A stretch of DNA of 64,000 nucleotides from Calothrix anomala FACHB-343. GTDB lineage: Bacteria > Cyanobacteriota > Cyanobacteriia > Cyanobacteriales > Nostocaceae. A program made the translations under genes and the position numbers. The notes under the pieces were generated by a model. It worked only from the letters and a program-made list of their open reading frames with translations, searched no databases and was not told where the DNA came from. The DNA lies in the NCBI RefSeq assembly GCF_014696435.1, contig NZ_JACJQG010000033.1, positions 27,747 to 91,746 of the forward strand, read 5' to 3'. This document shows, piece after piece, positions 25,890 to 28,185 of this stretch; within the stretch, counting starts at the first letter, position 1, and every line of letters begins with the position of its first letter.

Positions 25890-26387
25890 ATGCTATATCG
25901 ATTATTTGCGCGTTATCTATTTCTAGTTTTGCTGATTGTCTTATTGGTCGATCGCAGCAGTACTTTACCTGCTCAAGCTGCCAATATCGATGCTTATATT
26001 GGGCGTTATTTACACGTTACTGAGCCAATTGCACTAGAACTGGATGAACAAGGAAATACTCGTCTGTTTTCCCCATTAGAATTATCTGCTGGGAAAAAAC
26101 TGTTTGAAACCAACTGTATTAACTGTCATGTTGGTGGCGCGACTTTACCCGATCCTCAAGTATCTCTGGCGCTAGAAACCCTCAAAGGTGCTAATCCAAG
26201 ACGCGATCGCCTTAACTCTCTGGTTGACTTTATGCGTCAGCCCATGACATACGATGGTACTCAAGAAACCTATTGGTGTCGAAAGTTGACCCCTGATTTT
26301 CTCTCCCAACAGCAAGTGGAACGTTTAGCCGCTTTTGTTCTTACCGCCGCAAAAAAAGCTCCTGGTTGGGGTCAAGAAGATTTTTAG
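25890..26387 (+). CDS. psbV2: cytochrome c550-like protein PsbV2
   Basis: A 165-residue paralogue of PsbV with a signal peptide ending near PAQAA (residues 1-31). The heme-binding motif is CINCH (Cys76, Cys79, His80). The position that supplies the second axial His in PsbV is occupied here by Cys130 (TYWCRKLTPDF), the His/Cys ligation reported for PsbV2. Low redox potential would follow. Its order directly after psbV matches the known psbV-psbV2 arrangement. Start ATG is poorly marked by a ribosome-binding site. Function in vivo is uncertain. Confidence 0.93.
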   Translation: MLYRLFARYLFLVLLIVLLVDRSSTLPAQAANIDAYIGRYLHVTEPIALELDEQGNTRLFSPLELSAGKKLFETNCINCHVGGATLPDPQVSLALETLKGANPRRDRLNSLVDFMRQPMTYDGTQETYWCRKLTPDFLSQQQVERLAAFVLTAAKKAPGWGQEDF

Positions 26388-26565
26388 ACTTCTACAGCTA
26401 AATTTCTCTTGGCAAAAAATATTTATTTTTGAGATTATACTATAAATTTACTTTTACTAGCTGAAGTATACAGATTATTTTAGGTTAAATTTATTTAAGT
26501 ATGTTTACCGGATTGGCTAAATTTCTACTAGAGAAATAGAGTTCATTATTAAAAAAAATTCATCT

Positions 26566-26580
26566 ATGACAGATTGTCAT
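26566..26580. promoter_or_regulatory. dyad-symmetric candidate operator upstream of petE
   Basis: ATGACA, spacer GAT, TGTCAT: a perfect 6-3-6 dyad about 64 bp before the petE start, in an AT-rich promoter region. Plastocyanin genes in cyanobacteria are copper-controlled (the BlaI-type repressor PetR), so this is a reasonable repressor site candidate, but I cannot confirm the motif. Confidence 0.4.
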
Positions 26581-26644
26581 ATTTGGCGTATTTTTTATTT
26601 AAAATGGGGAAGGGAAAATTAAAACCATTTGTTAGGAGAACGCC

Positions 26645-27061
26645 ATGAAATTAATTGCGTCTAGCCTGCGGCGCTTGAGCCTAGCTGTATTGACAATTCT
26701 TTTAGTTGTTAGCAGCTTTGCTGTTTTTACTCCCAGCGCATCTGCTGAGACTTATCAAGTCAAACTAGGTAGTGATAAAGGACTACTACAATTTCAACCC
26801 AAGAGTATAACCATTAAAGCAGGTGATACAATTGAATGGGTGAATAACAAGCTGGCTCCTCATAACGTAGTGTTTGACGCTGCTAAAATCCCTACGAAAA
26901 GTGCTGATTTAGCTAAATCTTTATCTCAAACTAAGCTGTTGTTGAATCCAGGCCAAAAAGTAACCACCACCTTCCCCGCAGACGCGCCTGCTGGTGAATA
27001 CTCCTTCTTCTGCACACCCCACCGTGGCGCAGGTATGACTGGTAAAGTCATTGTTCAATAG
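26645..27061 (+). CDS. petE: plastocyanin
   Basis: A 138-residue blue-copper electron carrier between cytochrome b6f and photosystem I in the thylakoid lumen. The signal peptide ends SASA at residue 34. Copper ligands are His73 (APHNVVFD), Cys123, His126 and Met131 (FFCTPHRGAGM), which become 39, 89, 92 and 97 in the mature protein, the canonical set. The ribosome-binding site is strong (TAGGAG, seven bases before ATG). Placement between psbV2 and a cytochrome c6 gene puts copper- and heme-based carriers side by side. Confidence 0.98.
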   Translation: MKLIASSLRRLSLAVLTILLVVSSFAVFTPSASAETYQVKLGSDKGLLQFQPKSITIKAGDTIEWVNNKLAPHNVVFDAAKIPTKSADLAKSLSQTKLLLNPGQKVTTTFPADAPAGEYSFFCTPHRGAGMTGKVIVQ

Positions 27062-27161
27062 CTAGATACAGCTAGATAATAGATGATTTCCTTGCTTGGC
27101 TGGCAAATTAGCCCCTAGCAATCCATCATCAACCTAGAGTGATGACAATTTATAGATAATG

Positions 27162-27248
27162 AGCGGTGTCGAGTCTCATCCCTGCCTAAAATGCTAACCA
27201 TTGCATAGGCTTGTTCACAGAGGGGGTAACTCGCCACCGCTAATTTTT
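27162..27248 (+). ncRNA. candidate structured RNA between petE and petJ
   Basis: A nested fold can be drawn by hand: outer stem AGCGGTG (27162-27168) with CACCGCT (27235-27241); then GAGT (27171-27174) with ACTC (27229-27232), both separated from the outer stem by two bases; then CCC (27180-27182) with GGG (27223-27225); and an apical hairpin GCCTA-AAA-TGC with GCA-TAGGC. The outer stem is followed by AATTTTT. A -10-like TATAGATAAT ends at 27160. This suggests an independent small RNA of about 85 bases. The outer layout (7-bp stem, 2-base spacer, 4-bp stem) recalls a tRNA but there is no T arm. Strand could also be minus. Confidence 0.5.
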
Positions 27249-27475
27249 ATGGGATTTCCGGAAAAATAAGGGGAATCGTATTGAATTTTTTCAATGCAAA
27301 ATTACAAATAAATTGAAGATTTCTGCGCTTAATAATGTTTATGCATTACAGAAATCAGCGCTTCATAGGGTAGAGTACACATAGCATTTGGTAATCTCTC
27401 AGGCTTCTAGCAGCCATAGAAAACTTACTGGAGAAGGTTTTGCAGTTGCCGAATGGTTGTTGCGAGGAGAATATC

Positions 27476-27832
27476 TTGAGAATACTTGTGAGAATACTTT
27501 TATTTATACTGCTGTTGGCGATCGCCTTTTTTAGATTCACATTCATTTTGCCAGCATTCGCTGTTGAAGCATCAGAAGGAGCCAAAATCTTTGAGGCTAA
27601 TTGTTCTTCTTGCCATATAGGCGGCGGTAACATCCTCATTAGCCATAAAACCCTAAAAAAGGAGGCATTATCGAGTAATCTCGAAAATTATAACCAAGAA
27701 GGTATTCAAGCAATTATTCACCAGGTACAAAACGGCAAAAATGCCATGCCTGCCTTTAAAAACAAACTCAGCAATGAGGAAATTCTCCAAGTAGCCGCCT
27801 ACGTCTTTCAAAAAGCGGAAACAGGGTGGTAA
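27476..27832 (+). CDS. petJ: cytochrome c6 (PetJ-like)
   Basis: A small lumenal c-type cytochrome, an alternative to plastocyanin as donor to photosystem I or cytochrome oxidase. I choose TTG 27476 because GAGGAG lies six bases upstream and the protein then begins directly with a signal peptide (MRILVRILLFILLLAIAFF, ending near PAFA). The 118-residue product has heme motif CSSCH (43-47), Met91 in NGKNAMPAF as second ligand, and the C-terminal Trp typical of c6. Some positions differ from the commonest c6 sequences, so it could be a c6 paralogue rather than the main petJ. Confidence 0.88.
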   Translation: MRILVRILLFILLLAIAFFRFTFILPAFAVEASEGAKIFEANCSSCHIGGGNILISHKTLKKEALSSNLENYNQEGIQAIIHQVQNGKNAMPAFKNKLSNEEILQVAAYVFQKAETGW

Positions 27833-28185
27833 TTAGGTATTGGGTATTGGGCATTGGGCGTTGGGCATTGGGCATTGGGCATTGGGCATTGGGCATTGAA
27901 AGAATTTTGGATATTTGATGAAGCTCTCAGTACAAGTTTTGGATTTTAGATTTTAGATTGGAATCTATGCATCGCAAATCTGTCTTGAAAATAGGAGCGC
28001 TTAGGCTAGGGGTTAGGGCGTGTTTTCAAACCCCGAAAGTAGGTTGTTTGAGGTGAACGCAACCCAACGAAGTAACGTAAATGTTGGGTTTTGTTCCTCA
28101 AACGCCACTCGCCTCAAGCCGGGAAACCCGCCCACGGCGGTGGCTCCCCAACCTACATTGAAGTCTAGCCCCTAGCCTCTAACCC
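27833..28185. other. intergenic region with heptamers and inverted repeat
   Basis: GGGCATT-type heptamers at about 27838-27897, then a region at about 28043-28105 with inverted segments (GTTTGAGG ... CCTCAAAC and CCCAAC ... GTTGGG). No gene. It separates convergent petJ and proC. Confidence 0.55.

Follow-up and report, generated by a model that had tools for sequence, protein, structure and literature searches.

A small RNA derived from the 3' end of a cyanobacterial mRNA of light harvesting is reportedly named ApcZ. Cyanobacteria lack Rho, and a hairpin with a U-tract ends only 22% of the transcription units in one species, as stated in the part of the source considered here (PMC13289151). 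Opposite copper regulation of petE, encoding plastocyanin, and petJ, encoding cytochrome c6, has been shown in Synechocystis (PetR/PetP; PMC7896320, in the part considered). The structure described below covaries over much of a cyanobacterial family and is located where read-through would couple two oppositely copper-regulated genes.

The element, a hairpin in a 64,000-nt stretch of DNA from Calothrix anomala FACHB-343 (the whole of which is termed the window), can be compared with several described systems. Like an intrinsic terminator, it forms a stable stem 3' of a coding gene, in the same orientation as that gene and with U-rich sequence directly behind it, and in several lineages it consists of a plain hairpin and a T-run. 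Unlike such a terminator, its full form encloses about 54 nt of structured sequence within the basal stem and has an AA spacer and a short U-tract, its stem sequence and architecture are kept over many genera, and termination is predicted here. With hairpins that stabilize mRNA 3' ends (PMC13289151, in the part considered) it shares the position at an mRNA 3' end, unrelated hairpins being found instead in other lineages, about half of them without a U-tract, while the element itself differs by the U-run that follows its stem in 74 of 74 loci. The sRNA derived from a cyanobacterial mRNA 3' end (PMC8136909, in the part considered) is similar in that there, too, the mRNA of a photosynthesis gene ends in a structured and conserved region, but the element has no seed kept across the family and is known from sequence alone. 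NsiR8 and NsiR9 of heterocyst-formers (PMC4734099, in the parts covered) are likewise intergenic structured RNAs conserved in heterocystous cyanobacteria; they are, however, backed by mapped start sites and Northern signals, while the element is attached to the 3' end of petE and has been recognized from genome sequences only. In the parts of that article covered, the words petE, plastocyanin, petJ and cytochrome are absent. In the literature on petE, petJ and plastocyanin RNAs, terminators and UTRs and on conserved Nostocales sRNAs, the element was not recognized among the matches listed, which does not prove its absence from print.

The hairpin between petE and petJ

In the window, psbV, a second cytochrome c550-like gene, petE and petJ are arranged in tandem on the plus strand. 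The relevant features are the following.

25890–26387, plus strand: second cytochrome c550-domain gene, between psbV and petE (PF14495, E 3.8e-39)
26645–27061, plus strand: petE, plastocyanin precursor, 138 aa (open reading frame; PF00127 Copper-bind, E 2.4e-29)
27080–27160, plus strand: petE 3' region before the hairpin, with a possible upstream stem GATGAT..TTGCT / AGCAA..ATCATC and an A-rich linker (alignment of 28 petE 3' regions)
27151–27160, plus strand: TATAGATAAT, the -10-like string of the earlier note (present in the sequence; promoter function not supported)
27162–27241, plus strand: the element, a conserved three-tier hairpin (MFE folds, covariance-model matches, covariation, tree count)
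27162–27174, plus strand: 5' arm of the basal stem, AGCGGTG-T-CGAGT (pairs with 27229–27241)
27179–27183 with 27221–27225, plus strand: helix 2, TCCCT with AGGGG (85.4% of cells paired; two-sided change in 5 of 5 pairs)
27184–27210, plus strand: apical hairpin GCCTA-AAA-TGC-loop-GCA-TAGGC (MFE fold; lineage-specific form of the variable apical tier)
27229–27241, plus strand: 3' arm of the basal stem, ACTCG-C-CACCGCT (pairs with 27162–27174)
27242–27248, plus strand: AA spacer and T5 run, a terminator-like U-tract directly after the stem
27440–27832, plus strand: petJ, cytochrome c6-like, TTG start, exact start uncertain (open reading frame; PF13442, E 2.6e-15, and PF00034, E 8.6e-8, on 27476–27829)

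The fold of the element is real. Its outer stem is composed of AGCGGTG (27162–27168) with CACCGCT (27235–27241) and of CGAGT (27170–27174) with ACTCG (27229–27233), while GCCTA (27184–27188) and TGC (27192–27194) pair apically with GCA (27203–27205) and TAGGC (27206–27210). The minimum free energy of 27140–27260 is -38.3 kcal/mol (z -3.4, 1 of 200 shuffles as stable) and that of 27157–27255 is -35.1 (z -3.4, 2 of 200 shuffles as stable). All parts of the nested fold that an earlier note had drawn from the sequence are located at this place and the MFE fold reproduces their pairing, the comparative evidence given below being stronger. The outer stems do not have the matching two-base spacers that it had described; a single T/C mismatch lies between them instead. 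Where it had seen T-runs after the outer stem there is one run only, T5 at 27244–27248 behind the AA, and although the -10-like string that it had pointed out before the stem, TATAGATAAT, is indeed present, a consensus promoter scan of the sigma-70 type reported none in 27000–27200 and relatives give only a weak positional signal.

These data bear on the proposal, put forward in the earlier note, that a stand-alone sRNA gene, perhaps linked to copper or redox state, is transcribed from a promoter of its own between petE and petJ. We consider this improbable. In several lineages, AT-rich -10-like strings do closely precede the stem, the mean -10 score is highest at 14 nt 5' of it (6.59 vs. 3.11 overall, with many of the rows stemming from closely related Nostoc), and one subclade of genus-mates, in which the hairpin remains in a short form beside petJ without petE, speaks in favor of the earlier reader. 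However, the best -10 scores in the 22 nt before the stem are barely above those of shuffles (mean 8.85 vs. 8.05; at least 9 in 25 of 74 loci vs. 22% of shuffles), no clear promoter was found, the apical sequence is lost in several lineages and 74 of 80 loci link the element to petE. For comparison with Table 1 of the article on NsiR8 and NsiR9, we relied on what we take to be the genomic place of petE. Judged from positions, we could link none of the entries in that table to petE (PMC4734099, in the parts covered).

Occurrence in relatives and covariation of the stems

When 218 genomes of the family were searched at the plain DNA level, 19 yielded a match, counting the genome of the window itself. 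All 19 matches lie downstream of petE, and the first alignment and covariance model R1 were built from these matches. With R1, scoring 11 candidates per genome, 45 of 388 genomes of the order were matched, all within the same family as the organism of the window; when eight relatives were taken alone and 150 candidates were scored, all eight were matched at E 1.4e-6 or better, four of them by a short form before petJ. In all of 30 loci opened for the best R1 matches in the order, some of which repeat earlier loci, petE precedes the element in the same orientation, at a distance of no more than about 310 nt. A petE-anchored set comprised 80 loci from named genomes, the best 80 of 139, and at a match threshold of E 0.1 or better the element was found on the petE strand downstream of petE in 74 of these 80, with the stem 47–312 nt (median 103.5) past the last aligned petE codon. 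The BLAST and covariance-model search in relatives that the earlier note had suggested thus reveals a conserved element.

Six petE loci of this set lack a match (L084, L060, L070, L127, L128 and L131). Among them, L084 from a Desmonostoc vinosum metagenome-assembled genome retains, as judged by eye, the two basal arms as well as helix 2, with an insertion interrupting the apical part, L060 and L070 have petE 3' regions as in genus-mates with separated petE and petJ, and L127, L128 and L131 carry other stems 3' of petE. We also selected another 28 genomes of the family, of which 17 gave a match in the petE sense (E 0.1 or better), in some cases with little common sequence; 11 of the 28 had been matched in the order scan and all 11 were matched again, while six of the 17 without an earlier listed match were now matched. 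This set overlaps with the named one, as the petE 3' sequences of at least L160, L163 and L164 equal those of L119, L076 and L084, respectively. In L165 all three tiers are paired (GCAGTGCCGAGC/GCTCGGCACTGT, z -7.6), with little sequence in common with other members. In L168 only a remnant of the 3' arm, AACTAGTTACCGCTTATTTTT, is kept beside a AAGTCGGGTTTT inverted repeat.

Across the phylum, 292 genomes were scanned; 16 of the same family were matched again, and five from a single other family gave weak matches (E 6.8e-6 to 4.3e-3; 33–41 nt in three and 89–94 nt in two). We take the latter for putative generic terminators; restriction of the element to one family is not proved. A repeat or mobile element was rejected, the own genome containing one full copy and seven other BLAST matches of 16–23 nt with unrelated-looking surroundings; phage and plasmid collections gave no match to the element. 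Hairpins in the genus-mate loci L147–L149 were not accepted as copies: they are terminator-like (GGCGGTGG/CCACCGC), and the loci have no petE match. Rfam 15 gave no match in the window at curated gathering cut-offs, and the sole match below threshold that covers the element, to the snoRNA model sR55 (15.2 bits vs. a cut-off of 35), is chance-like, which led us to dismiss a known Rfam family.

In a model-fitted alignment of 75 rows, 90.4% of the cells are paired, compared to 33–62% in slid controls, and 17 of 22 pairs exhibit two-sided changes (16 of 22 with helix 3 as revised below). For the basal stem, 96.1% of the cells are paired over 73 distinct rows and 9 of 13 pairs show two-sided change. 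A MAFFT alignment of 35 representatives, which was not structure-fitted, folds into the basal stem and helix 2 with 17 pairs, 11 of them with two-sided compensatory changes. As related rows can inflate covariation counts, the basal pairs were also counted on a petE tree with 82 tips, where the 12 pairs of the true register show 24 double compensations vs. 1, 1, 1, 3, 1 and 2 in six slid registers of 9–11 pairs each. The true register further has 27 breaks and two restorations; the basal stem is therefore not inviolate. Eight of 91 rows that are off the fixed register (L082, L100, L119, L124, L160, L165, L175 and L187) were left out of the tree, as was one more with too little coding sequence; in none of the registers tried do L082 and L100 pair well, which counts against the structure, while L165 pairs fully in another register. 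Compensatory changes in the stems, on which the earlier note had let its fold stand or fall, are thus present in the model-fitted alignment, in the MAFFT alignment and on the tree.

The apical hairpin corresponds to model columns 37–40 with 82–85, in which 86.8% of the cells are paired over the 75 rows. This assignment replaced a first one for helix 3 (columns 36–39 with 72–75, drawn as TGC/GCA), for which the value was 76.8%; the apical tier GCCTA-TGC/GCA-TAGGC of the earlier note accordingly holds for the window and its nearest kin, but is not the best fit across all rows. On both arms of the basal stem, GCGGT/ACCGC is nearly invariant in the 75 rows, beyond what pairing alone needs. G-U cells outnumber A-C cells (175 vs. 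65; 54 vs. 16 in the basal stem), and this excess suggests selection on the RNA of the petE strand. An RNA from the minus strand was rejected: the reverse-strand match in the window reaches 36.5 bits compared to 81, a weaker match that arises because the fold is a palindrome, and the G-U and A-C counts favor the petE strand, though an alignment fitted on the plus strand may lean that way.

petE as the host gene and the position of petJ

The position of the element is not independent of one host gene, the exception to its tie with petE being the genus-mates with a short form before petJ. On the same strand, petJ follows 3' of the element in 68 of 74 loci, the aligned petJ start lying 27–466 nt (median 62) from the hairpin. 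In five of the 74 (L098, L130, L132, L133 and L135, with 2.8–2.9 kb examined past the hairpin) the element stays with petE and no petJ was found adjoining, while the sequence of L113 ends too early to tell. Also in the relative G103, the element lies after petE with no petJ match within about 4 kb downstream.

In the genus-mates G013–G016, and by coordinates also in G019, psbV-petE and petJ do not share a contig or are separated by more than 1 Mb. A short hairpin with a 12-bp stem, a short loop and AAATTTT remains before petJ without petE in G013–G016 (L141–L144), 74–199 nt past an unrelated 66-aa gene that the genome of the window keeps elsewhere. Behind petE in the same genus-mates (L154–L158) there is another fold, CTGGAG-GTCAA/TTGAC-CTCCAG flanked by GGGG/CCCC hairpins, which was folded for L155 (z -3.1) and seen as sequence in the other loci.

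Such an arrangement could suggest a cis-regulatory leader or insulator that evolved for petJ, with the hairpin bordering the control region of petJ on its upstream side and acting by attenuation or factor binding, and the frequent presence of petJ as the next gene on the same strand as well as a sequence block just 3' of the hairpin that appears by eye to be common to several genera would agree with it. We regard this as very improbable, as the element persists behind petE also in loci in which petJ was not detected, the distance to the petJ start is variable (although that to petE varies too) and the folds run gave one dominant fold and no alternative anti-terminator fold. For the same reasons of retention after petE without petJ and of one dominant fold, a riboswitch or metal-sensing leader was rejected. 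The metal- or redox-linked regulator between the two genes that the earlier note had envisaged finds no support either, since the element persists with petE in the absence of a detectable petJ and no signal of pairing with petJ leaders was obtained (mean z -0.37, n=68), in a crude test in which windows can overlap the element and folding is ignored.

Past the stem, at least four T in 8 nt were found within 18 nt in 74 of 74 loci, compared to 108 of 296 control windows. The longest T-run is 4 in 60 of the 74 loci and at most 3 in 12, behind the AA spacer. A simple terminator scan of 26400–27600 with a loop limit of 8 reported none; a short loop occurs only in reduced forms (L132, L141–L144), the full form carrying extra helices. 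Taken together, the constant strong stem and the nearby U-run, combined with variable apical helices, argue for a 3'-end hairpin that ends and/or protects the petE mRNA, and we consider it moderately probable that the element is the 3'-end hairpin of the petE transcript, a terminator and/or 3' protector, insulating petJ. After RNA polymerase leaves petE, the transcript would fold into the basal stem of 12–13 bp, followed by the short U-rich stretch. The basal stem would end the petE mRNA by intrinsic, Rho-independent-type termination and/or shield its 3' end from exonucleases, and the hairpin would keep petE transcription from entering petJ. Insulation of petJ is proposed since petJ is usually the next gene in the same orientation and since copper regulates petE and petJ in opposite senses. 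The modest U-tract, the AA spacer and the size of the full form, much larger than that of a normal terminator, count against reading the element as a terminator.

Seventeen petE 3' regions have no or only the weakest match. A perfect stem reached by at most 3 of 60 shuffles is present in 12 of these and not in the other five; L084 and L180, both among the 12, belong to the element as divergent members. At least four T in the next 10 nt follow six of the 12 stems (L084, L128, L131, L179, L180 and L181), L070 being without a tail in the stretch. With only half of the stems having a T-rich tail, a 3' protector fits as well as a terminator.

The apical tier and a possible second function

The apical tiers form an extension that varies between lineages; it folds but can be dispensed with. 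They are absent or shortened in L119, L130, L132, L141–L144, L160–L162, L169, L172, L182 and L187, and the basal stem is kept with the apical part lost in L132 (41 nt) and in L141–L144 (50 nt, simple hairpin with AAATTTT, folded for L143). An apical sequence like CTAARAYGCTAA is nevertheless conserved among many Nostoc-like genera. When 200-nt petE 3' regions were compared between genera, 43% of 190 pairs scored above 40, vs. 7% of 171 and 6% of 153 for the psbV and petJ 3' regions, respectively. Upstream flanks gave 36% of 153 pairs for petJ, in part the same stretch as the petE 3' region, and 100% of 190 for petE.

Conservation of the apical and upstream 3' sequence among many genera, which a pure terminator would not require, argues against a terminator-only reading, and the excess in petE 3' regions leaves room for a second function, most plausibly as a 3'UTR-derived sRNA or a protein site. 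In the first case, cleavage of the petE mRNA by an RNase, or termination after cleavage, would free the conserved 3' end, with the basal stem as its terminator, and the RNA would pair with other mRNAs and link the plastocyanin level to other genes. Despite the conserved petE 3' regions, the apical sequence shared by many genera and a precedent in cyanobacterial light harvesting (PMC8136909, in the part considered), we hold this to be rather unlikely: deep lineages (L132, L165, L180 and L182) have an unrelated apical sequence or none, so that no accessible seed is kept across the family, and petJ and petE leaders, the only targets examined and by crude tests, gave no pairing signal (for petE, mean z -0.23, n=73, folding ignored).

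Both functions might be united in a dual-purpose 3' domain of the petE mRNA in heterocyst-formers, in which an enlarged terminator hairpin, released or acting as an sRNA or bound by a protein, would report plastocyanin expression to other photosynthesis genes and also isolate petJ, lineages without the apical part having kept the terminator half only. This is a speculative and not very likely extension of the 3'-end hairpin that we favor. Relatives offer natural comparisons, namely the full form, the basal stem only, replacement by an unrelated hairpin and a hairpin left before petJ without petE, and with these variants termination, 3' protection and an sRNA role are directly testable.

Between petE and the hairpin, sequence blocks of the 27080–27160 region are partly common to several genera in the alignment of 28 petE 3' regions. 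Small stems seen there by eye are unproven, since the consensus fold of the whole petE 3' region from these 28 sequences contains the main hairpin only, without upstream stems, and 27070–27160 folded alone gave z -1.1. Short pairings compete within 27080–27160, where ATCATC can pair with the upstream GATGAT or with a downstream GTGATGA.

On the other side of the hairpin, a block like TTTTGATCAAATTTGACTTAAT is found 3' in many Nostoc loci, with a shorter form in other genera, and may be part of the petJ control region. Directly 3' of petJ lies a short tandem repeat of TTGGGCA-type units (27840–27900). Similarly to the second c550-like gene in the window, a 30–42% match to psbV precedes petE in 7 of 19 petE loci. 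The 200 nt upstream of petE (26445–26644 and equivalents) are very strongly conserved, with 190 of 190 intergeneric pairs scoring above 40, more than in the other four flanks tested, and probably contain a copper-regulated promoter.
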